Shown piece after piece: positions 46,838 to 60,734 of a stretch of DNA of 64,000 bases. Below the pieces are notes generated by a model. It saw only the letters and a list, made by a program, of their open reading frames with translations, ran no database searches and was not told the DNA's origin. The stretch covers positions 1 to 64,000 of the forward strand of contig JAFEDI010000078.1 of the NCBI GenBank assembly GCA_018241725.1. The letters are read 5' to 3'. Position numbers and translations under genes: made by a program. Numbering within the stretch: the first letter of the stretch is position 1; each line of letters starts with the position of its first letter. The stretch is from Pseudomonadota bacterium (GTDB taxonomy: Bacteria; Pseudomonadota; Gammaproteobacteria; Burkholderiales; Rhodocyclaceae).

Positions 46838-47356
46838 ATGGCAGGGTGTCCAACAGTGGTTGGGGAGGGGGTGCCCTCACATCCATACGTTTGTAGTCGT
46901 GAGGCCGCCGATTTGACCGATCCAGCGATCACCCCCTTTCTTGCCGATGCCGAGCTTGGGCAGGCGCTGAGGGCCTTTGTAGCCGCCGGTGTTGCGGCGG
47001 GGGCCATCGAGCCGGTGGGTGACGTTCTGTGTGCTCCGGCAGGGGAAATCCTGGAGGCCCTGCAAGGGCTGCTTCTGTCCCAGGAGGTCGCAAAACGGGA
47101 AGCGCGGGATCTGCGCGAGCGTCTGGGGCTTGCCATGCAGAATACCGAGGCAGGTCTGTGGGACTGGGACCTTCTCGATGGCACACTGGTCATGGATGCG
47201 CACTGGCAGGAAATGCTGGGTTATGGTGTCGCGGAACTGTCCAGCGATTTTTCCTCCTGGATGCCGCTGCTGCATGAGGACGACCGGGAGTTGCTGCATC
47301 ACCAGGTGGTGGCGCATCTGCGTGGAGAGCTTAAGAGGAGGAGAGATATTCCATAG
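46838..47356 (+). pseudogene. 5' part of interrupted hybrid histidine kinase
   Basis: 172 codons before a stop inside the inserted element. Residues up to about 164 are host-encoded: an N-terminal region, a coiled segment (LSQEVAKREARDLRERLGLAMQNTEAG) and the first half of a PAS domain (GLWDWDLLDGTLVMDAHWQEMLGYGVAELSSDFSSWMPLLHEDDRELLH). The last eight codons come from the element. Joining codon 47330-47331 to 60735 restores a continuous frame. The start is uncertain: this ATG lies in a small hairpin (CCTGCC / GGCAGG), and an in-frame GTG at 46871 is an alternative. Confidence 0.85.
47326..47331 (+). repeat. Left copy of target-site duplication
   Basis: AGAGCT here and again at 60729-60734. 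The exact duplication is 4 to 6 bp because the flanking bases of the element are ambiguous. It fits the short (5-bp) duplication made by Mu-type transposition. Confidence 0.75.
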
Positions 47357-47403
47357 GGCCTGAGCGCGATAATTCCGCGCCTTACCGAGATACTCAGGGA
47401 TAT
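47341..47403 (+). repeat. Left-end transposase-site-like repeats L1-L3
   Basis: Three copies of a (C/G)GMGATA-type core all reading inward: GAGAGATATTCC (GATA at 47345), GCGCGATAATTCC (GATA at 47368) and CCGAGATACTCAG (GATA at 47389). Spacing is 23 and 21 bp, about two helical turns. The first two lie 13 and 36 bases from the end, matching the right end. Confidence 0.7.
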
Positions 47404-47466
47404 ATCGCTCGCTCCACTGAAAATAGTTTCACTGTGGCGAAAGGTGCGGCGCCGCGTCGCTTTCGG

Positions 47467-47796
47467 TCAAAGAGCGGTGGATTTCAGGGCGGACAGGGAC
47501 GCCGCGACATCCTCCGGGAGGGCGTCCGTTCGAATCGCCACGGCCTCGTTTGTCGAGAGGTCAGTGATCGTCACGAGCGTGTTCCCGTCACCATGGATTG
47601 GCGATGTTCCTGCACGGTCAGCGTTCTTCAGCAACTGGGCGTGACGATGCAGGGCGCTGCGGGAGAACTTGATGCCAGCTGCGGCAAGCTCCGCGATACA
47701 CGTTTCGATGCAGCCGTACAGATACCGCCTGAGCGTGCTGTCGACTTTGGCTCGATCCTCATCACTTAGCCGTGTGAATGTTTTGTTGCGCCCCAT
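47467..47796 (-). CDS. DUF3486 (Mu gp27-like) protein
   Basis: 109 residues. Residues 1-65 (LSDEDRAKVDSTLRRYLYGCIETCIAELAAAGIKFSRSALHRHAQLL) match the DUF3486 helix-turn-helix pattern, including the S-K/R-SA-H/L-HR-HGQ signature of Mu gp27, a packaging-associated (small-terminase-like) gene of transposable phages. The ATG at 47796 has GAGGA upstream; the longer in-frame start at 47994 lacks similarity. It is alone on the minus strand, away from the capsid genes, with no large terminase. Confidence 0.75.
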   Translation of the reverse strand: MGRNKTFTRLSDEDRAKVDSTLRRYLYGCIETCIAELAAAGIKFSRSALHRHAQLLKNADRAGTSPIHGDGNTLVTITDLSTNEAVAIRTDALPEDVAASLSALKSTAL

Positions 47797-47990
47797 TTCA
47801 GTATTCCTCGCTCGATGATCTGAACCGAAACGATAACGGGATGGCGCGAGATAATCCCAATGACGGAGGTCAGCGAGTGGGCAGCGGCCCCGACCAGAGA
47901 CAGGCGCCCACACGGCCAGGCGCACGCCGGTAGGGGCGGTGCCGGACAGGCTCTGGCCGATCTGCCTGGGCCGCGAGACATACCGCGCTA

Positions 47991-48746
47991 TCAAGCGTCT
48001 GCGGGTGGATCAATGAAGCCGAGGGCTGCGATGAACTCGGCAAGCCCACCGCGCGAAGCTTGAGCGCGTTCCGCAAGCGTCTTCGCCTGAGGGTGGCCCT
48101 GGCTGGCGATCAGGGATGTCATGAGCACCAGAAACCCGATTTCAGCACATGCCAATAGCGCCCGGCGCAGCTCCCACGAATGGGGGCCATGCGCATAGAC
48201 GAAGTTCAGCAGGTAGGTGTCGTCCCGTTCCTTAATCCCGGTGCTACTCACGATAGTGCGGCTGTTCGGATGGGCACCGAAATCGATAATCAAGTCATAT
48301 CCTTTCTTCACCAAATCGGAGAACTGTGCACCTTGCTCCTCGGCCAAGTAGGAGAACATCTTCGTCGCCGTGAATTCAGACCGGCACCGAATTCGAGATT
48401 CGTCATCGCAGTCCCGATGCAACCACACATCCCCTAGTTCGGGTTTGACGGCAATTGCATTGGCGTACAGGGCGCTTTCCAAGGCGCCGCGGAGCGTCAT
48501 GAAAACAGCCATGAGCTGCCCGGAAAGGGCCAAGAAGAGGGCCGCCCGAAAGGATGCGTGCGCGTTGAGGACCAACACAGCGGCCGACGTCGGCTTTACC
48601 TTCCCGGCCTCCCCTATCCAGTCAATGAACACCTGGTCGATTTCCCGCAGATAGGCCAAAGGACCGGCAAGCTCCTTCTCCGTTACCTGAGAGATTACGC
48701 GGACGGATTTAAGGAAGTTCTGAAAAGAAGGATCGTTATTTGACAT
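47991..48746 (-). CDS. Unknown 251-residue protein (element cargo)
   Basis: Predicted soluble, largely helical protein. Visible motifs are an R-GALESALYANAI helix, SEFTATKMFSYLAEE, IDFGAHPNSRTI and a hydrophobic C-terminal helix LLACAEIGFLVLMTSLIA. The pattern faintly recalls helical HEPN-like or DUF5677-type proteins but I cannot support a family. It sits upstream of and reads toward the DUF3486 gene. Position as single cargo between phage modules is typical of defence or superinfection genes, which is only inference. Confidence 0.7.
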   Translation of the reverse strand: MSNNDPSFQNFLKSVRVISQVTEKELAGPLAYLREIDQVFIDWIGEAGKVKPTSAAVLVLNAHASFRAALFLALSGQLMAVFMTLRGALESALYANAIAVKPELGDVWLHRDCDDESRIRCRSEFTATKMFSYLAEEQGAQFSDLVKKGYDLIIDFGAHPNSRTIVSSTGIKERDDTYLLNFVYAHGPHSWELRRALLACAEIGFLVLMTSLIASQGHPQAKTLAERAQASRGGLAEFIAALGFIDPPADA

Positions 48747-49056
48747 AGGCAAGACCTTGGTTTTCGCAGGCTTGAAGCTCGGGCGTGAGCTTTTCGATTG
48801 AACTCAGGCGAGGCATGGTGAGGCTTCCAGTTGGGGGCGGACACTCGCCCTGCGTGTAGATGAGAGATCGATATTCTATCCGTGCATCGGTACTCAATCG
48901 CAGCCTCGAAATGAGCGTGACTGGCAGTGAGAATTTCCGCCTCCAATTCGAAACCCGGCCCGCCGGGCTGTTCGAATCAAATACCCGATTCGAATTCCAG
49001 AATCGGCCGTTTTGACGGCTAGGATGCAGCCATCAACTCAGCCAGGAGCCGACGCC
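48747..49056. other. Divergent regulatory region in the element
   Basis: 310 bases between divergent genes. It contains the inverted repeat TTCGAATC-N8-GATTCGAA (48971-48994), two further TTCGAA-type half sites near 48950 and 48994, and no credible gene. Promoters for both flanking genes are expected here. Confidence 0.55.
48971..48994. promoter_or_regulatory. Candidate operator, inverted repeat
   Basis: Perfect 8-bp inverted repeat TTCGAATC / GATTCGAA separated by eight bases, with an extra ATTCGAA half site at about 48950. The spacing fits a dimeric repressor site. It lies 63 bases before the 49057 gene and faces the divergent minus-strand gene. Confidence 0.5.
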
Positions 49057-49389
49057 ATGAACACCACGAAGACCCCCAGCAATCGCCCCACCCGGCCTGC
49101 CCTTCGCTTGGTCGAGGAGTCGAGCCAGTTGGACCGCCTGCAGCACCGCATCCAGCTGCTGGAAGGACAAATGAACGCCATGGCGCAGGCCTGGTTGTAC
49201 CTCGCAGCCGAGTGCGAGATGCAAGGCGGATTTAGCCTGGAGCGGATGGAAGAGTCGCTGAAGAACAAGCACTGGCCGCGCTGTGTGGACGTCAATGACA
49301 ACGCCCGGAACACCCTGTATTGGCTGTGCTACGAACTCTCGGCGGCGCGTAACGTCCGGGCGGCCCGAGCACGTGACCAGGACGTGTAA
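49057..49389 (+). CDS. Small helical protein of unknown function
   Basis: 110 residues: basic N terminus, a coiled helix (QLDRLQHRIQLLEGQMNAMAQAWLYLAAECEMQGG) and a second helical part ending NVRAARARDQDV. I do not recognise a family. The ATG at 49057 is chosen over an upstream in-frame start because it follows the A/G-rich AGGAGCC. A terminator follows directly. Confidence 0.65.
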   Translation: MNTTKTPSNRPTRPALRLVEESSQLDRLQHRIQLLEGQMNAMAQAWLYLAAECEMQGGFSLERMEESLKNKHWPRCVDVNDNARNTLYWLCYELSAARNVRAARARDQDV

Positions 49390-49411
49390 AGCAGCACCGC
49401 CGTAGGCGCGG

Positions 49412-49435
49412 GGTTCTGCCACGGCAGAACCTTTT
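49412..49435 (+). terminator. Terminator in the element
   Basis: GGTTCTGCC / GGCAGAACC (49412-49420 and 49423-49431) followed by TTTT. Ends the small gene at 49057-49389. Confidence 0.7.
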
Positions 49436-49457
49436 CCGCGGGCGGCGGATCGCCTGG

Positions 49458-49515
49458 TAACGCAAATAAAATTAAATCAATGCGTTATAGGGATTGGCCT
49501 TCCGCCGCGGCGGAA
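49458..49515. promoter_or_regulatory. A/T-rich inverted repeat and 16-bp palindrome
   Basis: TAACGCA (49458) and TGCGTTA (49481) flank an A/T-rich core, followed by the perfect palindrome TTCCGCCGCGGCGGAA at 49500-49515. Likely promoter and operator for the secreted-protein gene at 49669. Confidence 0.4.
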
Positions 49516-49668
49516 AAATCCCTTCCGTCCGCAGAACTCCAGGCGATGAATTCCGAACAGCCATCGTTTCACTGCAACTCCGATCCAGTCCATGAAGCCA
49601 TCGCGTCACCGCGCCTCACAAATTGCTCGGGCATAATCCTTCATCATCAAAACACAGGACGTTCAGCC

Positions 49669-50142
49669 ATGAAACGAATCGTCTTCGCTTTGTTCATTGT
49701 CTCCACGCCGGTACTGGCTGCCGAGTTCGGGTGGAAGTGCCCTGGCGGTGAGGTCGGGGTGGGCCGGGCATCGCCGTGCCCCGGTGGCGTCAAGCTCTAC
49801 CTGGACGATATGAACACGGCGCAGTTGAACGCCTACACCAAGGCGCAATCGGCCCAGGATCGGAAGGACGAACTGGCGCGCAAGGCCGAGTCAGCCAAGC
49901 TCAAGGCCGAACAGGACGCAAAGGATGCAGCTTTGCTGAAACTGTGTGGCAAGCTGGATGGCGAGCCAGTCCTTGGCATGACGGAAGAGCAGTTCGTGAA
50001 ATGCACCATGTTCGGCGAGCCGGCCACCAAGAACTACACCGTCACGCCCAACGGCAAGATGGTGCAGTACGTGTACAGGTCCTCGGTCTGGCACGGGTTC
50101 GCGTATTTCAGGAATGGCCGCCTTACCTCCTACCAGTTCTAG
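49669..50142 (+). CDS. Secreted protein of unknown function
   Basis: 157 residues with signal peptide MKRIVFALFIVSTPVLAA, a short CPGG-containing segment (WKCPGGEVGVGRASPCPGG), a charged helix (AQSAQDRKDELARKAESAKLKAEQDAKDAALLK) and a C-terminal small beta domain (NYTVTPNGKMVQYVYRSSVWHGFAYFRNGRLTSYQF). The last part resembles the beta-stranded outer-membrane-lipoprotein-like fold of SmpA/BLIP type (G...L/V.G.TEEQ) but I do not assign it. ATG at 49669. Confidence 0.7.
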   Translation: MKRIVFALFIVSTPVLAAEFGWKCPGGEVGVGRASPCPGGVKLYLDDMNTAQLNAYTKAQSAQDRKDELARKAESAKLKAEQDAKDAALLKLCGKLDGEPVLGMTEEQFVKCTMFGEPATKNYTVTPNGKMVQYVYRSSVWHGFAYFRNGRLTSYQF

Positions 50143-50162
50143 GCCGGTGTTGTTGCTCCTGG

Positions 50163-50190
50163 TCAAATTCATCGACGTCGACGAATTTGA
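50163..50190. repeat. Palindrome P1 of dispersed family
   Basis: 28 bp, arms TCAAATTCATCGAC / GTCGACGAATTTGA, 13 of 14 positions pairing. Confidence 0.8.
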
Positions 50191-50351
50191 TGGGAATGAC
50201 GTGGCGGACCGCTCGGTTAATGATGTCTGCCACGCTTAAGCTAACCAGTCCTGAGCTCGAATCAAAACGGCAGGCGCTTGCCGTTTTGGGAAAAACCAAG
50301 CTCTGCGAGCTGCTGTAATACAGGGCAAGTCGTTGGTCATGGCCTTGGTCA

Positions 50352-50373
50352 AATGCGTCGATGTCGACGCATT
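50352..50373. repeat. Palindrome P2 of dispersed family
   Basis: Arms AATGCGTCGA and TCGACGCATT are perfectly complementary around a TG centre. Confidence 0.8.
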
Positions 50374-50378
50374 CTGTC

Positions 50379-50402
50379 AAAACGTGCGTCGACGCACCAT
50401 TT
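50379..50402. repeat. Palindrome P3 of dispersed family
   Basis: Perfect 14-bp core GTGCGTCGACGCAC, extended to AAA...TTT flanks with two mismatches. Confidence 0.75.
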
Positions 50403-50445
50403 AACGGCCAGTCAGTCCACGCTTGCATTGCGTGTGAGAGTTTCC

Positions 50446-50469
50446 AAACCGTTCGTCAACGCACGATTT
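50446..50469. repeat. Palindrome P4 of dispersed family
   Basis: Arms AAACCGTTCGT and ACGCACGATTT around CA; 9 of 11 positions pair. Confidence 0.6.
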
Positions 50470-50504
50470 GCTAGCGGTCGGTAAGTTCGCAGAGTGGCCG
50501 CCAA

Positions 50505-50526
50505 AATGCGGCGTCAACGCCGCATT
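50505..50526. repeat. Palindrome P5 of dispersed family
   Basis: Arms AATGCGGCGT and ACGCCGCATT are perfectly complementary around a CA centre. Confidence 0.8.
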
Positions 50527-50562
50527 CATGAACGCGACCAGCTTTCGCTCTAAAAAAACTTG

Positions 50563-50592
50563 TTGCGCTATGCAAAAGGTGTTCGCTATGAT
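50563..50592 (+). promoter_or_regulatory. Promoter-like sequence before the small RNA
   Basis: TTGCGC (50563-50568), an 18-base spacer and TATGAT (50587-50592). A transcript would start near 50599 and meet the terminator at 50653-50685. Confidence 0.4.
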
Positions 50593-50598
50593 CGAAGC

Positions 50599-50686
50599 GT
50601 CGTTGAAACAGAAACGACCTGAGCTTGGCAGCTCGGTTATAGTTGGCGCACGAGCCGCGCCATTGTGATTTGTCGCGGCTTTTTTG
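50599..50686 (+). ncRNA. Candidate ~88-nt structured small RNA
   Basis: Three consecutive hairpins: GTCGTT / AACGAC (50599-50618), CTGAGCT / AGCTCGG with one GU pair (50619-50636), and terminator AGCCGCG / CGCGGCT (50653-50680) followed by six Ts. A promoter-like sequence ends seven bases upstream. It could be a free regulatory RNA or an attenuated leader of the DUF3102 transcript. Expression is untested. Confidence 0.5.
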
Positions 50687-50715
50687 TGCGCGCTCGGTGT
50701 CGCTCAATGGGCGGG

Positions 50716-50794
50716 CCGGGTGGGAGGGCTTCGGCCCTGCCGGTGCCAACTACCGGTCTGCCAACCTGCCCGGTTCCGCTCGCCCTCTTGGCAG
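50716..50794 (+). ncRNA. C4-antisense-like structured RNA region
   Basis: Outer stem CCGGGTGGG / CCTGCCCGG (50716-50724 with 50765-50773, two GU pairs) encloses two hairpins: AGGGC-TTCG-GCCCT with a stable UUCG loop, and CCGGT / ACCGG. A competing pairing CTGCCAA / TTGGCAG (50758-50764 with 50788-50794) is also possible. The fold, and the conceptual peptide NGRAGWEGFGPAG across it, recall the C4 antisense RNA / ash region of P4- and P1-type elements. Assignment needs a covariance-model search. Confidence 0.5.
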
Positions 50795-50833
50795 GGGGCT
50801 GGCGGAAATGCAAACCGCTAGTTGGAGTGCACC

Positions 50834-52630
50834 ATGAACACCCATTCCGTCCACGAGACCGGCATTCTGCCGCCTTCGAGTTCCGTAGCACCGGATCTAC
50901 TCCCCGCCATTCCGGAAACGCTTCCGCCGGGCTATCGCCTCCCCGACGACTGCACCGATCCTGACCTGATCCAGCGTTACATTGCCGCGCAGATGGGGCG
51001 TACGGTGGAAACCTGCCTAGAGATCGGCCGTGGGCTGATTGCGCTCAAGACAACATGCGCGCATGGAGAGTTCTTGAATCGGCTGCGGGAGTTGGGTATC
51101 AATCAGGGTGTGTCATCACGCTTCATAGCTGCTTTCCGCAGGTTCTCAAATGTCGCGACGTCGCGACATTTGGCCACCGTGGGTAAGCAGTCGAAGCTCT
51201 TCGAACTGCTGCCGCTGGATGATGAACAGATCGAAGAACTTGCCGTACAAGGGCAGACCGGACCGCTGGTCTTGAGCGAGATTCCGTCCATGACGGTCAA
51301 GGCTGTGCGCGAGACGGTTCGGAAGATCCGGGAAGAGCGTAAACAGGTCAGTGATGCTCTCCTGGACGACAAGCGTCAGCAGCTTGTGGGTGCGTCTCTT
51401 CACAAGAAGAAATGTCTCGTTGACGAGACATTTGACAGAGCAGAGGAAGCTCTCCAGCCCGGTGACCGCATCGAAAGCCACCTCGCCCGCCGCCCTGGCA
51501 CCGTGGTCAAGGTCTACCCCGACGGTAGCGCCTGCGTATGCTGGGATGAAGGCGAACCGCAACCCGAGGGCATGGGGCATGAGCGGGTTCCTCGGCAGTT
51601 CCTGATACGGGTTTCCGCCCAGCCTGAGGCTACCGAGACCCCGGCGCCTGACGTAACCGATCCGGACGGACAGGCGCCGCTCCAGTGCGACCTTCTGGTC
51701 CGTGCCTTTCCCGCGTTCCGCGTCGATGATCGCGTGGAACACCTGGTCAGCGGCCGGCAAGGTCGCGTGCACAGCATCGTCTGCAATGTCGGCGTTGTCG
51801 CCGTCTGCTTCGACGGCGATGAAGGTGGCCCGGCGCTCTGCATGTCCGGAGAACTCGAACTGGTGGAGCCCTTGCCGGACTCCCTGCGGGTCCATGAGCC
51901 GCAACCCGGCGGCGGCACTGGGCCTGACGGATTGGAGCACATCCGCCGCGTCGATACCACGCTGCGCGTCCACTTTGGCGGGCGGATGTTTGACGTATCG
52001 CAGGACGGCGTCCAGGTCGGCGATGCGGTGTTCTGCCGGGCGGATGACAACGGGCCGTTCATTTACGTGAGGCGGGCGTGGGCAGCGCAACCCGAATTCA
52101 TCGCACCGCTCGTTCGTCACAATGATGGGCCATCGGCTTGCCTGGATGGACAGCGGTCAAATCGCCCTGGCTTGAGCGTGGGCGACCGGGTGGCGCACCG
52201 CGAGGACGGCGCGCTCGGCTACGTGCATAGCCTTCCCGGCGGTGCCGCCGTGCGGGTGGTTTGGGACAGCGGAACGGCCAACCGGCCGAGCTTGTGCCTG
52301 GAGGAGGAGATTGAACGGACGGGTGAGCCGCCCGCCGCCATGGCCCTGGGTGGAACAGCGGAACCGCGCTCTGGCAGCTCGCAGCCGGGCGATAGCGAAA
52401 CAGCCGAGGCGTGCAACCTCGAAACCGTGCAACTGAACCATCGCCGGGCCTATCTGCTTGAGCGAATGCGGGTTGTGCTACGCCATGCCGATGCCCTGGA
52501 GATGAACGCGATTGACGATGCCCTGGAGGCGCTGGTCAATGACGTCCAGTCGGGCCGCTACGTTCCCGGTCTTGTCGCGGACGACTACGAGCTGACCCGC
52601 CGGTTCTGGATCGAAGGGGGTGTGAAATGA
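50834..52630 (+). CDS. DUF3102 protein with three SH3/KOW-like repeats
   Basis: 598 residues. Residues about 48-190 match DUF3102 (CLEIGRGLIALKTTCAHGEFLNRLRELGINQGVSSRFIAAFRRFSN), a helical family common in mobile elements and resembling ParB/KfrA-type DNA-binding modules. Three repeats of GDRVxH...G.V..I...V.V.WD...P..CL..E lie at 209-262, 297-346 and 448-496. The C-terminal 530-598 is helical. Two perfect palindromes of the element's repeat family lie inside the coding sequence (codons 105-113 and 193-200). ATG at 50834 has GGAG at good distance. DNA binding is inferred. Confidence 0.8.
   Translation: MNTHSVHETGILPPSSSVAPDLLPAIPETLPPGYRLPDDCTDPDLIQRYIAAQMGRTVETCLEIGRGLIALKTTCAHGEFLNRLRELGINQGVSSRFIAAFRRFSNVATSRHLATVGKQSKLFELLPLDDEQIEELAVQGQTGPLVLSEIPSMTVKAVRETVRKIREERKQVSDALLDDKRQQLVGASLHKKKCLVDETFDRAEEALQPGDRIESHLARRPGTVVKVYPDGSACVCWDEGEPQPEGMGHERVPRQFLIRVSAQPEATETPAPDVTDPDGQAPLQCDLLVRAFPAFRVDDRVEHLVSGRQGRVHSIVCNVGVVAVCFDGDEGGPALCMSGELELVEPLPDSLRVHEPQPGGGTGPDGLEHIRRVDTTLRVHFGGRMFDVSQDGVQVGDAVFCRADDNGPFIYVRRAWAAQPEFIAPLVRHNDGPSACLDGQRSNRPGLSVGDRVAHREDGALGYVHSLPGGAAVRVVWDSGTANRPSLCLEEEIERTGEPPAAMALGGTAEPRSGSSQPGDSETAEACNLETVQLNHRRAYLLERMRVVLRHADALEMNAIDDALEALVNDVQSGRYVPGLVADDYELTRRFWIEGGVK
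51147..51172. repeat. Palindrome P6, inside the DUF3102 gene
   Basis: Perfect 26-bp palindrome; half is CAAATGTCGCGAC. Encodes part of SNVATSRHL. Confidence 0.85.
51410..51433. repeat. Palindrome P7, inside the DUF3102 gene
   Basis: Arms AAATGTCTCGT and ACGAGACATTT pair perfectly around a TG centre. Encodes part of KCLVDETF. Confidence 0.85.
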
Positions 52631-53145
52631 ACACCCGTAACCACGACAATCCGGCCATGACGGATCCGCAGGGATGGGATGCCGCCGCGGCGCTGATCGG
52701 TGCCGAGGAGGATGCCCTGTGGGATAAGTGCAATGAGCTGGACGCGGCCCTGACGCGAACCCGCGCCCTGCTGCGCTCGATTTCCTGCCTGATTCTCGAG
52801 AGTGACTTCCGGGTCGATGACGTGATTGAACTGGTGGAGTGCGCGAAGGAGACCCTGGAAGCGAAGGGAGAGGAACCGCTCGACTTCGTGATGGATTTTC
52901 GGCGCAACACCCAGAAAGCCATTTACGACCATCTGTTTCCCAAGCCGCAGAGCGCACCTGTGGCAGCTCCGGAAGATACGGCCGATCTGGCGCAGCAGCA
53001 GGAGGCCATCCAGGCCGATATCACCAAGTTGCTTACCGAGGCCGTCCGGCCCTATTGGACGAAAGCCGACAGCGTTGGCGAGAACAAGCCCGTGGAGCGT
53101 GCAGCGAAGCGCAAATCGAAGGCCGGAAAGAAGGAGGTGCACTGA
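52627..53145 (+). CDS. Unknown 172-residue protein
   Basis: Helical, acidic N-terminal two-thirds (ALIGAEEDALWDKCNELDAALTRTRALLRSISCLILE...) and a basic Lys/Arg-rich tail ending KSKAGKKEVH. No family recognised. Its ATG overlaps the stop of the DUF3102 gene (ATGA), and its own stop overlaps the next start (TGATG), so the three genes are coupled. Confidence 0.7.
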   Translation: MNTRNHDNPAMTDPQGWDAAAALIGAEEDALWDKCNELDAALTRTRALLRSISCLILESDFRVDDVIELVECAKETLEAKGEEPLDFVMDFRRNTQKAIYDHLFPKPQSAPVAAPEDTADLAQQQEAIQADITKLLTEAVRPYWTKADSVGENKPVERAAKRKSKAGKKEVH

Positions 53146-53369
53146 TGGACCACGGACAAGCGTTGCGCCTTGCTTTCCTTCGGCGCCAGGCGCGGCGGAG
53201 CAAGGCCGCGAGAGTGGTTGGCTGGCTGGGGAGTGCCTACCGGGCCTGCCGGAGCCCGCGAAAGCCGGACCCGCTCGCCGGGCTGGAGGTTGGCCTGGTA
53301 GATAAGGACGGGCTTCCGTGCCTGGCCTTCAGGATCGGTGCTTCGGTCAGATCCGCCCCCCGACCTTAG
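53145..53369 (+). CDS. Small basic protein of unknown function
   Basis: 74 residues, Arg-rich (LRLAFLRRQARRSKAARVVGWLGSAYRACRSPRKPDPLAGLEVG). The start overlaps the preceding stop. Translational coupling and the terminator 33 bases downstream support a real gene at the end of this operon; no function is suggested. Confidence 0.55.
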   Translation: MDHGQALRLAFLRRQARRSKAARVVGWLGSAYRACRSPRKPDPLAGLEVGLVDKDGLPCLAFRIGASVRSAPRP

Positions 53370-53401
53370 CCGATGATGGTATCCGCCGACCTTCATCACT
53401 G

Positions 53402-53426
53402 AACCGCCTGCAATGGGCGGTTTTTT
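53402..53426 (+). terminator. Terminator ending the early operon
   Basis: AACCGCC / GGCGGTT (53402-53408 and 53416-53422) followed by TTTTTT. Confidence 0.85.
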
Positions 53427-53663
53427 ATTGCCCGCTTCCGATCTGCTGCCGGTCTGTCCAAATGGGCATCAAGGGGCGGCGCTGTGCAGGCCTGCAGACC
53501 CGTCCCAAACGCTCCCTATTCGTCCCAAAAACAAAATACGTGCATCGGTGCGAAGTTCATTTTTTTTGCAATGGTGAGCCTCGTGGGTGTTACAGGTTGC
53601 TCGCCCACTCTGAACGCGAAGTGCTGCATAGGCTACGTCCAAAGATTTCTTGTGGTTTGTTAT

Positions 53664-53683
53664 TAATTGAATTGGTTCAATTA
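53664..53683. promoter_or_regulatory. Candidate operator before the Mor-family gene
   Basis: Perfect 8-bp inverted repeat TAATTGAA / TTCAATTA with a four-base centre in an A/T-rich zone, 62 bases before the activator gene. Confidence 0.5.
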
Positions 53684-53744
53684 GTTTTCGCGTAAAAAAA
53701 TGGGAAATTGAACAGACTCATTGGGTTTTTGGAAGGATCGGATT

Positions 53745-54146
53745 ATGCCCAAAAAGCGTGATGGGGGAGACTTCATTGTCGAGTTCACGGAAAGCGTGAA
53801 GAGATTCATGGTTGATTCTGGAGTCTCAGAATCTGTCGCAGATTTTGTGTCTGTCGAAATGGCCAATTTCATATGTAAGGAGTGGGGCGGTTCGCAGCCA
53901 TACATACCCGTGAAGTTGCATGCGCAGAAGGACGAATGCTGCGCGAAGATTTATGACGACTTCTACTTCAAAAAGAAGACTCTTCACGAGATTTCCTCTG
54001 AATACAGAATATGCCATCGAGTGATCCGCAAATATCTAAATGCGGAGGGCTTGAGGCGCCAAGAGCAACGACGTATCGAAGACGCCGCAAGGAAGGAAGA
54101 ATCTCAAAGAGCTAATTGGCAGCGCTGGAAAAAGGAAAATTGTTGA
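53745..54146 (+). CDS. Mor/C-family transcription activator
   Basis: 133 residues. Residues about 25-110 match the Mor family of Mu: the dimerisation part (FVSVEMANFICKEWGGSQPYIPVK) and the helix-turn-helix (AKIYDDFYFKKKTLHEISSEYRICHRVIRKYL). Mor and C switch on middle and late transcription in Mu. Here it directly precedes the capsid gene, overlapping it (TGATG), so it probably activates its own structural operon. ATG at 53745 follows GGAAGGA; a TTG at 53721 is possible. Base composition is more A/T-rich than its neighbours. Confidence 0.82.
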   Translation: MPKKRDGGDFIVEFTESVKRFMVDSGVSESVADFVSVEMANFICKEWGGSQPYIPVKLHAQKDECCAKIYDDFYFKKKTLHEISSEYRICHRVIRKYLNAEGLRRQEQRRIEDAARKEESQRANWQRWKKENC

Positions 54147-55108
54147 TGATGAGTCCATCTGAAATCCGCTTGAAGCAGAGCCCGGTCCTCAGCAGCCTTC
54201 TGCTTGGGATGGGGCAAGGGAGCTTCATCGCGGAGCGTGTTTTTCCGCGTCTCCCGCAAGCGTTGTCCGGCGTCACGCTCGCCCAGTTGGGTGACGAGCG
54301 TTTCCGCAAGTACAACTTGCGCCGTGCGCCTGGCACGCCGACCAAGCGGGTCAGCATCAAGTACGAAGGGAAGGTCTATACGGTGAATGAAAGCGCCGTG
54401 GAGATTCCGATTCCCCGCGAGCTGATCCGTGAGGCGGATGAATCGCGCAAGCTGAATGTTTCCAACCACCTGGATATTTCGCGGATAGCGGTCATGACGG
54501 CCCATGACATCCTACTCATGGATTACGAGCTGGACGCCGCAGCCTTGGCGACCAATCCAGCGTCCTACGCGTCCGGACATGTCGTCGATCTGGCCGGTGT
54601 GACCAAGTGGGGTACGGACACCGGTACGCCGGTCAGTGATATTGAGGCCGCCGGTAATCTGATCCGCAAGAAGACAGGACGCCGCCCCAATCAACTGACC
54701 CTTTCCGCCGATGCATTTACGGCCATTCGCCGGAGCCTCGATATTCAGAGCTACCTGCCGGATAGCCAACTCGGCCGGGCGAGCATTGAGGATCTGAAAA
54801 GGATTCTGCAACTGGATGAAGTCCAGGTCGGCGATGCGGTTTGGAAAGATGAAACCGACACCACCCGTGACGTCTGGGGGAACAACGCCGTTCTCTCCTA
54901 CGCCCCACAGGTAAGCGCCAATGGGGAGGCCGACATCTCGCTGGCTGCACCGGCCTTTGGCTTTACCAGCGTCATCGAAGGGCATCCCTACATGGAGCCG
55001 CCTTACTACTCCCCTGGGGAGAAGTCGTGGATGTTCGGGGCGACCTACGAGCGGCAAGCCAATATCGCATTTGATACCGCGGCCGTTCTCTTTCGCAATC
55101 CGCTGTAA
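54146..55108 (+). CDS. Phage major capsid protein
   Basis: 320 residues with HK97-fold type sequence: FRKYNLRRAPGTPTKRVSIKYEGKVYTVNESAVEIPIPRELIREADE, the ALATNPASYASGHVVDLAGVTKW strand-loop, and the C-terminal AAPAFGFTSVIEGHPYMEPPYY. It resembles coat proteins of Mu-like and related prophages. Start at 54146 or the ATG three bases later. First structural gene; no portal gene precedes it. Confidence 0.85.
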   Translation: MMSPSEIRLKQSPVLSSLLLGMGQGSFIAERVFPRLPQALSGVTLAQLGDERFRKYNLRRAPGTPTKRVSIKYEGKVYTVNESAVEIPIPRELIREADESRKLNVSNHLDISRIAVMTAHDILLMDYELDAAALATNPASYASGHVVDLAGVTKWGTDTGTPVSDIEAAGNLIRKKTGRRPNQLTLSADAFTAIRRSLDIQSYLPDSQLGRASIEDLKRILQLDEVQVGDAVWKDETDTTRDVWGNNAVLSYAPQVSANGEADISLAAPAFGFTSVIEGHPYMEPPYYSPGEKSWMFGATYERQANIAFDTAAVLFRNPL

Positions 55109-55146
55109 CTGGGATTCGCGACCAATCCAAATCTTGGAGAATTGAT

Positions 55147-55893
55147 ATGGCTGAACAGATCGAAGTTGGAAGCGCGCTCAAGGTATTGAACGAGCACCAG
55201 GCTAAAGCCCAGGAGCTGCGGGAGCGCTTGGAACACGTGAGCGGCGCGGCGGCAACGTGGCGTGAGTCCCTGGCCGACTACCAGCGTGCAACCCCCGATC
55301 TTGCCGCACTGGAAAAGGCGGAATCGGATGCCTTGGCCGCTGTTGCCTTGGGCGAGGTGGAGCAGGAAACTGCCGACCGTGCATCCAGCCTGCTGGCCGA
55401 GGGCCGGCGCCTGGCGGGGGAACTCGGGCCGAAGATCAAGACGGCGCACAGCACCATCGCCGGTCTGGAACGCAAAGGTGAGGAGATCCGCGCAACTCTG
55501 GCGCAATTCGAGACGGCGCGAGCCTCAAAGCTGAAGGCCTTCCTGGTCGAGGAGATGGAGGCGGAGGCAGCCCGTTACGTGACCGCCGCAGCTGCCTTGA
55601 TCCGGCACCATTCGCGCATTCGCGCGTTGGGCCGCTTGGCTCAGAAGGCCGGACTCGCGACCCAACTGACAGGCGCGGACTTGAAGCTGGTGATTGGCCG
55701 CATGGAGTCGCTGAAGGCCTTCGCCGGGCAGCAGTCCAACCCCCACAAATCGTTCTTGATGTTCGAGGGCGGTATCACTGGGCAGGATCAGACCAAGAGC
55801 CAGGCGGCCGAACGCGACGAGCGCCAGCGCTTGACGGCCGAACTGGGTATCGAGTTCGAGTCCGAACTGCAACCTGCCGGCGAAGGAGTCTGA
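55147..55893 (+). CDS. Coiled-coil phage protein
   Basis: 248 residues, predicted mostly helical with long heptad-like stretches (EHQAKAQELRERLEHVSGAAATWRESLADYQRATPDLAALEKAESDALAA). It lies between capsid and protease-like genes. Position and shape suggest a scaffolding or head-completion role; no family is assigned. Confidence 0.7.
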   Translation: MAEQIEVGSALKVLNEHQAKAQELRERLEHVSGAAATWRESLADYQRATPDLAALEKAESDALAAVALGEVEQETADRASSLLAEGRRLAGELGPKIKTAHSTIAGLERKGEEIRATLAQFETARASKLKAFLVEEMEAEAARYVTAAAALIRHHSRIRALGRLAQKAGLATQLTGADLKLVIGRMESLKAFAGQQSNPHKSFLMFEGGITGQDQTKSQAAERDERQRLTAELGIEFESELQPAGEGV

Positions 55894-55894
55894 C

Positions 55895-56605
55895 GTGAAC
55901 CTCTCCGATCAAGAGCTCCACGCCAAAGCGCAGAGCTATGCCCGTGAGAACCGCGTGAGCTACGCGGAAGCCCTATCGGCCGTGGTCGTGAGCTTCTCCA
56001 GCACGCAGGTTCAACCTATGACCGCTGCTTACAGCGAAGGCGGTTTGTCGGATGCGGAAATTGACCAGCGCGCCAAGGTATATGCCCGTGAGCACAGCGT
56101 GAGCTACGCCGAGGCGCTGACGCAGGTTTGCACGATAACGACTTGCTTTCGGGAAGGTGGAGCCATCGTGGCTTTCAGTGAAGCTGCTCAGATTGTTGAA
56201 GGGCAGTGGATCGACATCTTTCGCGCCGGAGAGCACATCGATGATTCCGGTGTATCTCATCGTTTTAGCCAAGCGGATGTCGCTGGTATGGCGGCGTTTT
56301 ACAACCCTGCTCTTCGTGAGGCGCCGTTGGTAATTGGACACCCGGAAACGGATGGCCCAGCGCATGGCTGGGTGGCCGGACTTCGGGCTACACCCGATGG
56401 CATGTTGCAGATGAAACCCAGCCAGGTGGAGGCGCGCTTTGCGGAGCAACTGAGAGCCGGGCGTTTCAAGAAGCGCAGCGCGGCGTTCTATCCGCCGAAC
56501 CATCCGGGCAATCCGTCCCCTGGTAAGTGGTACTTGCGGCATGTGGGTTTCTTGGGTGCTCAGCCGCCCGCCGTGGCCGGCCTTCGGGATCTGGCGTTTT
56601 CCTGA
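55895..56605 (+). CDS. Capsid protease-like protein
   Basis: 236 residues. The C-terminal two-thirds (DIFRAGEHIDDSGVSHRFSQADVAGMAAFYNPALREAPLVIGHPETDGPAHGWVAGL...FKKRSAAFYPPN...YLRHVGFLGAQPPAVAGLRDLAF) match the phage prohead protease-like family found near capsid genes, with the conserved GHP and KKRSAAFY. The N terminus has two copies of a motif (SYARENRVSYAEALSAVV and YAREHSVSYAEALTQV). It follows, rather than precedes, the capsid gene, unlike most phages. Confidence 0.75.
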   Translation: MNLSDQELHAKAQSYARENRVSYAEALSAVVVSFSSTQVQPMTAAYSEGGLSDAEIDQRAKVYAREHSVSYAEALTQVCTITTCFREGGAIVAFSEAAQIVEGQWIDIFRAGEHIDDSGVSHRFSQADVAGMAAFYNPALREAPLVIGHPETDGPAHGWVAGLRATPDGMLQMKPSQVEARFAEQLRAGRFKKRSAAFYPPNHPGNPSPGKWYLRHVGFLGAQPPAVAGLRDLAFS

Positions 56606-56607
56606 TT

Positions 56608-56635
56608 GACCGCCGGCGGGATGCCGGCTTTTTTA
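56608..56635 (+). terminator. Hairpin between head and tail genes
   Basis: GCCGGC / GCCGGC with a short loop followed by TTTTTT, just after the protease-like gene. Could limit read-through from head genes into the tape measure gene. Confidence 0.6.
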
Positions 56636-56647
56636 CATGGAACCGAG

Positions 56648-56917
56648 ATGAGCAAGATTCAAGAGGCGCTCGAAGCTGCCAAAGCGGCGTTGACGGCGCG
56701 GCCGCGCCTGGTTGTGACGGTCAATGATTTGAACATGGCGCAGGCGGACTTCAACCCCTATGCGACGGAATTGGCGATGATCGAAAGAGCGCTGATTGAA
56801 GTTTCCTACCTCGATGTCGGGCTGCGCAGCCTGCTGGCTGAAAAGGCGGCGAGTCTTGCCGAGGCGGAGCGAGATCCGATTGACGTGACGGTTGCCAAGG
56901 GCGCGGGGGCTGTATGA
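56648..56917 (+). CDS. Small phage protein
   Basis: 89 residues, helical (KIQEALEAAKAALTARPRL... LAMIERALIEVSYLDVGLRSLLAEKAASLAEAERDP). ATG at 56648 follows GAACCGAG. Its stop overlaps the tape measure start by four bases. Location suggests a tail assembly chaperone or head-tail protein; unproven. Confidence 0.65.
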   Translation: MSKIQEALEAAKAALTARPRLVVTVNDLNMAQADFNPYATELAMIERALIEVSYLDVGLRSLLAEKAASLAEAERDPIDVTVAKGAGAV

Positions 56918-59900
56918 GTGGAGAAATCCGGGCGAAGGTCATCATTGATGGCGACCCCAAGGGCCTGCGCACGGCGCTGGCCCAGTCCGAGGCCGACCTG
57001 GCCAAGTTGGACGCCACCGGCCGTAAGGTGCAGATCCTGGAAGGCGCCATCCAGAACGCCAAGGATGCCCGCGCCGCCATGCTGGAAGCGCGGACCTCTG
57101 CCCAGACCCTAGACGAGCAGCTCGCATCCGCCAAGGGCGCCGGCGCTGGGAAGGAAGCGATCAAGCTGCTCGAGCAGGCGGTGAAGTCAGCCAACGCCGA
57201 GGTGAAGGCGTCGGAAACCGCTTGGGAGCAGTCGCGCCAGAAACTGGATGCGGCACGGTCAGCAGCATCCGCCGCCGGTGTCGATACCCGCAACCTGGCG
57301 TCCGAGCAGTCCCGCCTGAAGGCGGAAACGGAAGCTGCCGCCGCAGCGGTGCAGCGCAGTGCGCAGGCGCTGGAGGATGCAGCGCGGGCCAGCCAGGAAA
57401 AGCTCGCCCAAGATCGGGCCGCCGCAGCCGAAGAGCAGCGCCTGGCACAGATCGTCGAAATGAACACGACGCGGCAGCGCCTGGCTGCGCAGGAACTGCT
57501 TGAGGCCGAGCGAAAGGCCTATGCGGAGGCCGAAACGGCTTCAGCTCGCGCTACTGCGGCACGTGAGGCCGAGGCGCGAGCCGTCGAAGCCTTTGCAGCT
57601 CGGACCAAGAAGGCGCTGTCCGATTCGTTCTCTGCTGTCGGCATTCGAGGCAGTGCAGAGATCCAGGCGGAAATCCTCAACATTCAGCAATCACTGCTGA
57701 AACTGGGTGCCAGCGCCAAGATATCCGGTGCCGATTTTGATAGGGCCTTTGCTGAGGCAAAAACTCGGATTGCTGCGCTGGAAGCTGAAATGAACGGCGT
57801 GGTTCCGGCCATTGATCGTGTTGGAACTGGCGCCAAAGGCTTGAAGGGGGATTTCGCGGCACTCGCTGGGCAGTTTGCCGGTATCGCGATCGCAATGCAG
57901 GCGGGTCAAGCCTTCATCACGGCAAACAGCCAGATGGAAAGCCTGTCGCGCACCCTCAAGCAGCTGACAGGTGATAGCACCAAGGCGGCCGCTGAGCTGG
58001 AATATATCCGTGGCGCCGCCAACCGGATGGGGCTGGACGTCTTGGAAGCGTCCAAGAGCTACACCCAGTTGCTGGCGGCGACCAAGGGAACGGCGCTGGA
58101 AGGCGACAGCGCCAGGAAGGTGTTTGAGGCGGTCGCCGGTGCGATGGCCAGCCTCGGCAAGAGCAGTGCCGAGACAAACAATGCCCTGATGGCCGTGAAT
58201 CAGATGGCCAGCAAGGGCACGGTGCAGATGGAGGAGCTGAAAGGCCAACTGGGCGAAGCTCTGCCGGGCGCCTTGAAGGCGGCGGCGGATGGCGCCGGCC
58301 TGACCGTCTCCGAGATGAGCAAGATGATCGAAAGCGGTGAGGTTCTCGCGGAAGATCTGCTGCCAGCGCTGGCCAAAGGGCTCACCGAGATGTACGGCGT
58401 TGGCAAGACCAACAATGACACCTTTGTCGCCAGTTGGGCACGCCTCAAGAACACGGTCACTGACACGCTGCAGGTGATCGGCGATAGCGGCGTGTTCAAG
58501 GTTCTGACTCAGACGGTAAGCGGCGCGACGCAGGCCTTGGGCGTCTTTACCGTAGGTGCGGAAGCGTCGGCAAAGAAGATTGGCGTGATGGCCGCCGCCA
58601 TTGCCAACGGGGACTTTGGTCTAAAAGGGTTTTCAGATCGGGCGAAGCAGGCGCTGGGTGAAATCGACATCCAGACGGAAAAAAGCCTGCAAAAGATCAC
58701 TCAGGCGAGCTCGGGGGCCAGCACGGGGATCGCAGGGGCCGGAAAGGCCGCTGAGGATGCCGGAAAAAAGGCCGCAGATTCATCCAGCGGATGGCTTGCG
58801 GCTGAAAATGCGTATTCGCAGGTCGAACAGGCCAGCAAAAAGCAGATTGACCGCCTGAAGACTTTGCAGGACGCCGCGGACTCAGGCGGGGCGGCCATGA
58901 AGGCCTTCGCGGACGTCTTCGGCACCCAGGTTGAAAAGCTCACTGCCGCGACACAGGCCGCCAAGGCCCATGAGGATGCCAGCCGGGCACTGGCGGACCA
59001 GGTTAAGGCCGATCTGGAGATTGCCAAGGCCAAGCTGGTCTCCCTGGAGCAAGAGCGCGACGCCAATGGGAAACTGACCGACGCGAAGGAAAAGCTGCGG
59101 GAGAAACTGCAAGACACCATTCTTACCAAGCAGGCAGAGGCCGATAAGACGGAACAGGCCACCGCTGCGGCCCATTCGGCGACCCTGCAGGCGGAAGCCG
59201 CCACCGCAGTCTTTGCGGACCATGCCAAACAGGTCTACGCGCTGCGTGACGCTTGGCAGGCTGCGGAAGCCGAGTACCAACGTTTGTCCGTCTTGAACAG
59301 CCAAGGCGTCAGTGTCTCCAAAGAGCTGAAGGCGGCCGACGAAGCACGTGCCAAAGCGCTGCTCCTGTACCGGGATGCGCTCTCCGATGCGACGGCCGCC
59401 GCTGAACGCCATGTTGCAGCTGAGAAGAGCGCAGCCAGCATTCAACAATCTGCGCTGCAGAACGACCTATACCGGGCGAACACCATCCTGGAGGTCGCGA
59501 AGCAACGGGGCAATGAAAAGGAGATAGCCCAAGCTCAGATTGCTGTCTGGCGCATTGAATTGGAGATCAACGAAGCGCAGGCACTCGCCTCCAGGAAGGA
59601 GGCCGAGGCCATGGAGCTGGTAGCCAAGGCGAAGCGCGCCGAACTGGAGGCTTCCGGCGGGCTGACGGAGGCGAAGAAGGCCGAACTGGCGCTGGCGGAT
59701 GCCAACGTGAAGGCCAAACAGTTGGAGGCCGAAAAGTACGACCTGGTGGCCGACCGCATGCGGAAGCTGTCATACGAAACCAACGAGCTGAAATCGAGCT
59801 TCGGCGACCTATCATCTTCCGCCGACCAGGCCGCCGCATCAGCGGACCGTGCTGCCGCCAGTTACGACGGGCTGGCTTCGTCCATCCGTTCCGCCGGCCA

Positions 59901-60339
59901 GGCCAAGGATGGCTTCGTGCGGAACACCAACGGTGAAATCGTCACGACCGGTCCGGATGTCGCCGGCTTGGCGGTCAAGAACACGCAAACGCCGGAGCAG
60001 GCGAAAATCTTCGAGGAGGTCTTCAACTTCTACTACCAGAAGGCCTCTCAGGATCCGTCGAACTACTCATCGATGCAGGGCCTGCAATACGGGGCCATTG
60101 AGCGTGCAGCAGCAGCGGCTGCTGCGGCCGAGGCGCAACGACGAACATCTCAGAGCAGTGGAAGCGCCTCTTCGGCGTCCTCCTCTTCATCTGGGGCAAG
60201 CAGTTACCCGTTGAATGGGCAAACGATCAAGATCGACATAACTGGAAATGGTGGCTCCGCGGCGGCGTACGTGAACGATCAGGCCTCTGCTGACGCCCTT
60301 GTACGCATATTGAAGAGCTCCCTCGCGGGAAGATCTTGA
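56914..60339 (+). CDS. Tail tape measure protein
   Basis: 1141 residues. The N-terminal 250 residues are Ala-rich coiled coil. The TMP N-terminal domain lies about 290-500 (MESLSRTLKQLTGDSTKAAAELEYIRGAANRMGLDVLEASKSYTQLLAATKGTALEG...AVNQMASKGTVQMEELKGQLGEALPGALKAAADGAGLT). A second coiled coil and a Ser/Gly-rich tail follow. Tape measure length sets phage tail length. No tube, sheath or chaperone partner genes are present, so partners would be supplied in trans. ATGA overlap with the preceding gene. Confidence 0.88.
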   Translation: MSGEIRAKVIIDGDPKGLRTALAQSEADLAKLDATGRKVQILEGAIQNAKDARAAMLEARTSAQTLDEQLASAKGAGAGKEAIKLLEQAVKSANAEVKASETAWEQSRQKLDAARSAASAAGVDTRNLASEQSRLKAETEAAAAAVQRSAQALEDAARASQEKLAQDRAAAAEEQRLAQIVEMNTTRQRLAAQELLEAERKAYAEAETASARATAAREAEARAVEAFAARTKKALSDSFSAVGIRGSAEIQAEILNIQQSLLKLGASAKISGADFDRAFAEAKTRIAALEAEMNGVVPAIDRVGTGAKGLKGDFAALAGQFAGIAIAMQAGQAFITANSQMESLSRTLKQLTGDSTKAAAELEYIRGAANRMGLDVLEASKSYTQLLAATKGTALEGDSARKVFEAVAGAMASLGKSSAETNNALMAVNQMASKGTVQMEELKGQLGEALPGALKAAADGAGLTVSEMSKMIESGEVLAEDLLPALAKGLTEMYGVGKTNNDTFVASWARLKNTVTDTLQVIGDSGVFKVLTQTVSGATQALGVFTVGAEASAKKIGVMAAAIANGDFGLKGFSDRAKQALGEIDIQTEKSLQKITQASSGASTGIAGAGKAAEDAGKKAADSSSGWLAAENAYSQVEQASKKQIDRLKTLQDAADSGGAAMKAFADVFGTQVEKLTAATQAAKAHEDASRALADQVKADLEIAKAKLVSLEQERDANGKLTDAKEKLREKLQDTILTKQAEADKTEQATAAAHSATLQAEAATAVFADHAKQVYALRDAWQAAEAEYQRLSVLNSQGVSVSKELKAADEARAKALLLYRDALSDATAAAERHVAAEKSAASIQQSALQNDLYRANTILEVAKQRGNEKEIAQAQIAVWRIELEINEAQALASRKEAEAMELVAKAKRAELEASGGLTEAKKAELALADANVKAKQLEAEKYDLVADRMRKLSYETNELKSSFGDLSSSADQAAASADRAAASYDGLASSIRSAGQAKDGFVRNTNGEIVTTGPDVAGLAVKNTQTPEQAKIFEEVFNFYYQKASQDPSNYSSMQGLQYGAIERAAAAAAAAEAQRRTSQSSGSASSASSSSSGASSYPLNGQTIKIDITGNGGSAAAYVNDQASADALVRILKSSLAGRS

Positions 60340-60377
60340 TTTCGTGTCTCACCTTTTTCCAGACCAGGATAGCCAGC

Positions 60378-60614
60378 ATGAGCAACGAACTAATTTATTT
60401 TCTCCGTCAAGCGGTTCCAGGCGCCCCTCTCCTGATTGGGACAATTGTTCAAGAAAGCGCTGGTGAATATACGATTCAGCAGCCAGACGGCTCTCTCTCT
60501 AAGGCACGTAGTGTTGCCAGCTTTTCAGTTGGAACCACCGTACTCTTCCGCCCAGGCGGTGTCATTGAGTCTGAGGCTCCGGGGTTCGGTGATTTCATTG
60601 AGATCGATGTTTAG
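60378..60614 (+). CDS. Small protein at the right end of the element
   Basis: 78 residues, beta-rich (ELIYFLRQAVPGAPLLIGTIVQESAGEYTIQQPDGSLSKARSVASFSVGTTVLFRPGGVIES). Looks like a small OB/SH3-like fold; family unknown. ATG at 60378 chosen over an in-frame upstream start. Last gene before the right end repeats. Confidence 0.6.
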   Translation: MSNELIYFLRQAVPGAPLLIGTIVQESAGEYTIQQPDGSLSKARSVASFSVGTTVLFRPGGVIESEAPGFGDFIEIDV

Positions 60615-60633
60615 GCGGCGGGTCTTCGGCTTT

Positions 60634-60728
60634 CACTATCTCGTGGCGTAAATTTGTTACGGTGTGCGAAAGTCCCGTCCCTCTCGTTTATCTCGCCTCA
60701 GCGCCGGCATTTATCGCGGCGCGCTTTA
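60634..60728 (-). repeat. Right-end transposase-site-like repeats R1-R3
   Basis: Reading inward from 60729: CCGCGATAAATGCC (GATA 60712-60715), GGCGAGATAAACG (60689-60692) and CACGAGATAGTGA (60637-60640). The first two lie about 14 and 37 bases from the end and 23 bp apart, mirroring L1 and L2; TGAG before the second copy is shared with L2. Confidence 0.7.
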
Positions 60729-60734
60729 AGAGCT
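60729..60734 (+). repeat. Right copy of target-site duplication
   Basis: AGAGCT, matching 47326-47331. Confidence 0.75.

Follow-up and report, generated by a model that had tools for sequence, protein, structure and literature searches.

Phage satellites of the P4-like type and phage-inducible chromosomal islands (PICIs) carry site-specific integrases, and PLE satellites use an integrase as well. Transposable phages of the Mu type have transposon ends and a short target duplication, together with a transposase A (TnpA) and an ATPase B (TnpB) of their own. Here we describe an element of 13,397 bp, located at positions 47332-60728 of a 64,000-nucleotide stretch of DNA (below, the window) from a bacterium of the family Rhodocyclaceae (contig JAFEDI010000078.1 of assembly GCA_018241725.1). 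The element has transposon ends and a short target duplication as Mu-type phages do. Neither a transposase A and ATPase B of its own nor a site-specific integrase, as in P4-like satellites, PICIs, capsid-forming PICIs (cf-PICIs) and PLE, was found in it. The genes for an autonomous phage cycle (TnpA, TnpB, large terminase TerL, portal) were not found either, as expected of a satellite. We consider it probable that the element is a member of a satellite family that parasitises Mu-like phages: the transposase of the helper would move it, and it would be packaged into modified particles.

Satellites typically use tyrosine integrases, and chromosomal satellites without one are regarded as likely inactivated (PMC10690885). 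A review lists P4-like satellites, PICIs, cf-PICIs, PLE, PICMI, VEIMEs, tycheposons and others, and treats miniature inverted-repeat transposable elements (MITEs) apart (PMC11389934). AH14b of Pseudomonas sp. ANT_H14 is a small prophage found in the capsids of a larger prophage; unlike our element, it has a P4-type integrase and no structural genes (PMC4936722). In the available text of the open-access literature searched, preprints excluded, no transposing satellite was found, and the satellites described there are integrase-based. Within that literature the element would be a phage satellite, i.e., a thing of a known kind, with transposition as a way of moving that has no description. It is probably the first recognised satellite family that amplifies and integrates by transposition and parasitises the transposase, head and tail of a Mu-like helper.

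The element is inserted in a gene of a PAS-containing hybrid kinase, between two copies of AGAGCT (47326..47331 and 60729..60734). The kinase reading frame is unbroken once the flanks are joined. We searched 22 other genomes of the genus with the joined protein (274-aa query); in 18 of them the best match is of near full length, at 61-96% identity, the gene of these relatives being intact. A preliminary description of this DNA had recognised the ends and the target duplication and gave the latter a length of 5 bp. We read it as 6 bp, because three other complete copies of the element and a Mu-like prophage in the same genome show exactly 6 bp. The left end (47332..47460) has repeats resembling transposase sites, GAGATATTCC near +12 and GCGCGATAATT near +33; the right end lies at 60650..60728.

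The Mu-like prophage is the candidate helper. The preliminary description had suggested a search of the same genome for such a prophage with matching ends, and it is indeed there. It is split between two contigs, with the left end at C126:34281 and the right one at C69:10093, and both flanks carry the 6-bp duplication ACAATG. The outermost 22 bp of the right ends of the element and the helper are identical; the left ends share 71% identity, over 60 columns as well as over 120 bp, with equally spaced sites. The right-end pattern gave 0 control hits. The left-end pattern with two mismatches gave 4 matches in the own genome versus 2 for the reversed control (0 in the other three genomes), and therefore it was not used as own-genome evidence. 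The genome encodes a single TnpA of the helper type (phrog_310, 4e-109). Of the 58 phage records that this TnpA matches, 51 are from Pseudomonas phages; phages such as Escherichia PhiKM, Klebsiella KP12, and Pseudomonas Fc02 and H71 are nearest, at about 50-52%. We presume that the helper belongs to the B3-like group. The label BcepMu-like was withdrawn, since none of the matched records tallied is Burkholderia by name.

The element resembles Mu-like phages with this TnpA type (the own-genome prophage C126/C69, Fc02, H71) in end sequences, 6-bp duplication, Mor, capsid, protease domain, the N terminus of the tape measure and the gene beside the right end. It differs from them in the missing TnpA and TnpB, large terminase and portal, in a rearranged protease and in marker genes of its own. 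We searched the element with the helper's TnpA, TnpB, TerL and portal proteins, the identities of which were confirmed by family matches. At E<=1 the only match comprises 32 residues from the TnpA tail (E 0.04). In a comparable prophage of another genome (G382), whose TnpA is 48% identical to that of the helper and whose left end was located, these queries recover all four genes. Family scans covered 10 ORFs (open reading frames) of the element with Pfam, 9 with NCBIfam and 16 with PHROGs (one repeat counted), plus a small Arg-rich ORF; no integrase, transposase, large terminase or portal family was found among them. Thus the absence of transposase A/B, large terminase and portal holds as first described. 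Movement by a helper's transposase through shared ends, also proposed there, is well supported by the ends, the duplications and the missing transposase.

The TnpA-tail piece belongs to a 602-aa early protein (50834..52630, plus strand) with a phrog_1748 domain and a marker domain that we take to be KOW-like. In a one-protein comparison the piece shows 47% identity over 32 residues (E 8e-4). The 661-aa counterpart in Thauera butanivorans (L184, G362:C102, 2469-4454, minus strand) has the phrog_1748 and KOW-like domains followed by C-terminal matches to the TnpA tail (E 4e-13) and to the TnpB ATPase domain (E 2e-18; phrog_296 2e-22). With the TnpA residues before 372 as query, the one match in this ORF at E<=1 has 23 residues and is at chance level. 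These pieces in the two proteins suggest that the family descends from a transposase-bearing ancestor.

Core genes of the element recur elsewhere and in other genera, which answers the earlier question about further copies at different sites. Seven other loci have several of them (G303, G163, G382, G007, G362, G199 and the metagenome-assembled locus L102), and the named holders are Thauera phenylacetica B4P, T. aminoaromatica S2, T. butanivorans and Zoogloea sp. MAG.273. Both ends are present in four copies from three genera, and all four have exact 6-bp duplications: the window copy, 13,397 bp, with AGAGCT; the G303 copy, 13,462 bp, with CCGAGC; the G382 copy, 7,797 bp, with GTTGGT; and the G163 copy, 17,251 bp including an IS21-like insert, with CGATGG. 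Thus the missing transposase, the helper-like ends and the occurrence of relatives at other sites with 6-bp duplications can be read directly from the DNA.

The genome G303 also holds a second, truncated copy. This copy starts at its left end with the same base as the complete one and lies in another flank; it is 99.4% identical over 1,123 bp, and by our reading of the ORFs it then appears to be cut by an IS21-like element. The outer 43 bp are identical at a third G303 locus. Two further sites in this genome may be what is left of Mu-like insertions: at L155 (439-1221) a left end is accompanied by a gpG-type gene only, and at L167 (about 670) a site resembling the right end lies close to a gene for a methylase.

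The early genes keep their order between copies. The protease precedes the tape measure in the window and G007, and the tape measure comes first in G303 and G163. The recurrent genes include markers distinct from the genes of the helper, as is characteristic of satellites. The KOW-like profile matched 10 of 395 genomes of the bacterial family, 7 of them with adjoining core genes (G000, G007, G163, G199, G303, G362, G382), and 1 of 399 genomes of the order, namely the own genome; in 84,980 species genomes 7 loci were found. We did not count as family members the single KOW-like domains in G006, G010 and G012 (L186-L189; other or unclear context), nor L099 and L104, where the KOW-like domain alone matched. 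In L188 and L189 (G006, G012) the domain lies near tape-measure-like sequence amid other mobile-element-type genes, possibly in a different satellite. The search for the coiled-coil protein, another marker, matched 7 of 297 genomes of the bacterial family, including the own one. G163 and G303 hold the core set, G054, G346 and G209 have no core gene, and G128 has the coiled coil only.

The preliminary description had named a DUF3486 gene. The N-terminal part of this 109-aa protein (47467..47796, minus strand) does correspond to the DNA-binding domain of the phage small terminase (gp27/DUF3486; Pfam, PHROGs); its C-terminal half is different, and the remainder of DUF3486 is not matched. The Pfam match (9e-4) is under the curated cut-off, and that to phrog_426, terminase small subunit, is 9e-5; for the G303 homologue the value is 8e-12. 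The profile of this small-terminase-like protein matched 23 of 395 genomes of the bacterial family, 4 strongly (G000, G163, G303 twice, G382) and 19 weakly. We looked at the loci of five weak matches (G288, G139, G338, G429, G047). Nothing was found in G139, and G338 and G429 have no core gene past the terminase-like part (G429 also has a tape measure). The G047 locus (L133, G047:C190, 9685-12980) has early-gene, protease and small-terminase-like matches and no KOW-like domain or coiled coil.

As a phage control set we used 68 loci from viral contigs, 7 fetched by the capsid and 61 by the 602-aa protein, some of them fragments. TnpA is present in 62 of these loci, TnpB in 58, the small early protein in 5 and a weak small-terminase match in 16. 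The KOW-like domain and the coiled coil occur in none of the 68. In 50,697 phage records there was no match to the G303 KOW-like protein or to the window coiled coil. Nothing in the phage records matched the cargo ORF, the small-terminase-like protein or, by megablast, the whole element. The G303 element gave only short cargo matches with plasmids, and the C-terminal piece of its KOW-like protein matches one Pseudomonas plasmid. Scans of viral contigs with coiled-coil, small-terminase-like and KOW-like alignments found no relative by a pattern method that detects close relatives only.

The ratio of nonsynonymous to synonymous substitution rates (dN/dS) between copies is 0.15 to 0.65 in seven gene pairs: 0.65 for the KOW-like protein, 0.38 for the phrog_1748-type protein, 0.39 for the early protein and 0.15 for the cargo. 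The values for the tape measure (0.17), the coiled coil (0.33) and the protease (0.20) are rough because dS is high (1.1-2.1). These ratios below 1 and the tight overlap of the genes argue against a decaying Mu-like prophage that has lost most genes by deletions and rearrangements and is now immobile. So do the ends and duplications, intact in every complete copy, and the marker genes, recurrent across several genera and missing from the phage-contig loci. Decay would fit the phage-type genes around the element, the helper-like relative in the genome, the IS21-like insert in G163, the truncated copy in G303 and the TnpA-tail and TnpB pieces retained in T. butanivorans. Altogether we regard it as improbable.

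Of the genes named in the preliminary description, Mor, capsid, protease and tape measure are confirmed by Pfam, PHROGs and NCBIfam matches; these and the coiled-coil gene lie on the plus strand. The Mor-family activator (53721..54146; Mor PF08765, 5e-12) is followed by a major capsid protein (54146..55108; major head protein phrog_1005, 1.6e-70) that is 66% identical to that of the helper. Next are the long coiled-coil protein (55147..55893), a candidate for head assembly, and the rearranged capsid protease (55895..56605; head protease phrog_976, 1.5e-60). The protease gene of the own-genome phage lies upstream of the capsid gene and encodes the protease domain, a coiled-coil scaffold-like region and then a C-terminal motif (like AxxYAxxxxVxYAEALxxV). 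The proteases of the element, G303 and G163 carry 2-3 copies of the motif N-terminally (two in the window element) and have lost the scaffold-like region. The N-terminal motif may bind the capsid. The gene order is the opposite of that in the own-genome phage, the capsid coming first. Since the protease is rearranged, this order is reversed, the capsids are only 66% identical and copies recur, we reject a simple internal deletion of the own-genome phage.

An own capsid is also a feature of cf-PICIs; here it was seen in the window copy and, fused, in G199, with no integrase found. The G199 locus (L185, G199:C59, 6535-12946) is an element of the KOW type in which Mor is followed by a 671-aa ORF that fuses protease and capsid; the ends of this element were not found.

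The tape measure protein (56914..60339, plus strand; phrog_2335 2e-39, TIGR02675 2e-16) has 1141 aa, i.e., 100 residues fewer than the 1241-aa protein of the helper. Their first 200 aa are 86% identical (BLASTP). Full-length BLASTP gave weak matches only, and tblastn gave 47% over residues 4-535. PLE satellites of Vibrio cholerae have an own tape measure too. That of PLE11 differs from the helper's by 95 aa and, by the published account, goes into chimeric tails, and some cf-PICIs have putative tape measure genes (PMC12987554). The tape measure of our element, with its difference of 100 aa, may set tail length, as the preliminary description proposed. We do not claim membership of PLE from this shared feature. 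The tape measures of the copies differ in family: that of the window matches phrog_2335, and the best match of the one in G303 is phrog_24. With PLE can also be compared a weak tail-assembly-chaperone match adjoining the tape measure of the G163 copy; this match and a head-scaffold-type match lie at 9011-9580 and 10412-10777 of L090, on the minus strand.

MITEs and mini-Mu, a laboratory derivative, are like the element in being moved through shared ends by the transposase of another element, and helper-like ends without a transposase are what the element has. MITEs are about 300 nt long and, according to the review cited above, have no protein genes (PMC11389934), unlike the element, in which the 14 ORFs counted take up 86% of the length. 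A natural mini-Mu, i.e., a non-autonomous transposon moved by the helper's transposase with head and tail genes that serve no packaging of its own, is nevertheless worth weighing. The shared ends and the missing transposase require nothing further, the late gene set differs among copies, and the tape measure and the coiled coil were not seen in the 7.8-kb copy. On the other hand, the protease is rearranged alike in the copies that have it and is under constraint, a tape measure is present in several copies, though of different families, and Mor is kept. This explanation seems to us slightly less likely still than decay.

The least likely alternative is a helper-inhibiting island, in which the incomplete set of head and tail proteins would disrupt the assembly of the helper and shield the host, transfer being of second rank. 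It would suit the cargo, which varies by copy and some of which matches candidate defence models (PDC-M30A 7e-14, 1TM-TIR 3e-7), and the published satellites that target helper tails (PMC12987554). It leaves the conserved ends and duplications unexplained and is compatible with, not exclusive of, a satellite. The TIR-type cargo is that of G163 (L090, 15136-15804, minus strand; 1TM-TIR). The cargo of G163 and G303 is 94% identical and their KOW-like proteins about 44%, which points to swapping.

Several observations weigh against a satellite moved and packaged by a Mu-like helper. The own capsid is not general: among the loci seen it is present in the window copy and in G199, fused to the protease. 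Thus, of the earlier proposal that packaging is redirected by an own capsid set, the recurrent rearranged protease stands and the capsid does not extend beyond these two loci. The pattern that located the helper's right end had already fixed about 11 of the 22 identical bases, leaving the outer 11 free, and the ends of the G163 and G382 copies were placed with the help of the duplication. Complete copies vary widely in size, from 7,797 to 17,251 bp, the largest with its IS21-like insert. The right end of the G382 prophage was looked for and not found. Of the 4 genomes that hold a complete copy, only 2 have a TnpA of the helper type. No match to it was found in the G303 and G163 genomes, and therefore the copies there may rely on phages that enter the cell or may be stranded. 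In the protease tree (five duplicate rows removed, 37 to 32 rows; G163, L169, and G288, L135, labelled as family members) the phage L013 falls among six family members with support 90/92, so a strict clade is not shown, and a single family clade is not rejected (p-AU 0.36). Finally, a 6-kb contig of G288 (L135, G288:C86, 49-5537) joins a Mu-type TnpA C terminus (PF09299), TnpB and GemA to the rearranged protease and also carries the small-terminase-like protein and Mor. Some relative therefore owns a transposase; this locus is perhaps a phage or a self-moving relative.

With these points counted, we still favour a satellite of Mu-like phages. We infer helper-driven transposition, packaging, and changes of head size and tail, which could proceed as follows. 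On induction of the helper, its TnpA and TnpB would act at the shared end sites, and the satellite would be transposed and thus amplified. The satellite's Mor would turn on its late genes. The helper's terminase would package the satellite, perhaps guided by the small-terminase-like protein. The rearranged protease, with its motif in 2-3 copies and the scaffold part lost, would build or redirect heads together with the coiled coil, joined in the window copy by the own capsid protein. The satellite's tape measure would enter tails otherwise made by the helper. The helper would thus be exploited at three levels. At the transposase level the satellite would use copied ends, to which T. butanivorans adds a protein that links the TnpA tail with the TnpB ATPase domain and lacks the nuclease. 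At the head level it may use a protease that now bears several scaffold-tail motifs and redirects head size, and at the tail level there would be a substitute tape measure. Redirection of head size and packaging is the strategy of P4-like satellites and PICIs.

The other genes of the element lie on the plus strand, except for the cargo ORF of unknown function (47991..48752, minus strand; phrog_36906), the place of which is taken by a different gene in G303 and G163. They are the conserved small early protein (49057..49389), an ORF without a phage-family match (49480..50142), an early protein conserved in G007 and G288 (52627..53145), a small basic ORF (53145..53369), a small protein overlapping the tape measure start (56606..56917) and a small protein whose homologue adjoins the helper's right end (60378..60614). 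The small basic ORF was assigned by position and likeness to an ORF in relatives, with no sequence match at E 1e-3.

If our interpretation is true, borrowing the transposase of a helper is an additional integration route of satellites besides tyrosine integrases. Such a satellite could insert at many sites and be amplified by the helper's own act of replication. A Mu-type case would also be added to the recent finding of satellites that swap tail parts. The natural pairs in the window strain and in T. phenylacetica B4P offer satellite biology and Mu-type transposition together.

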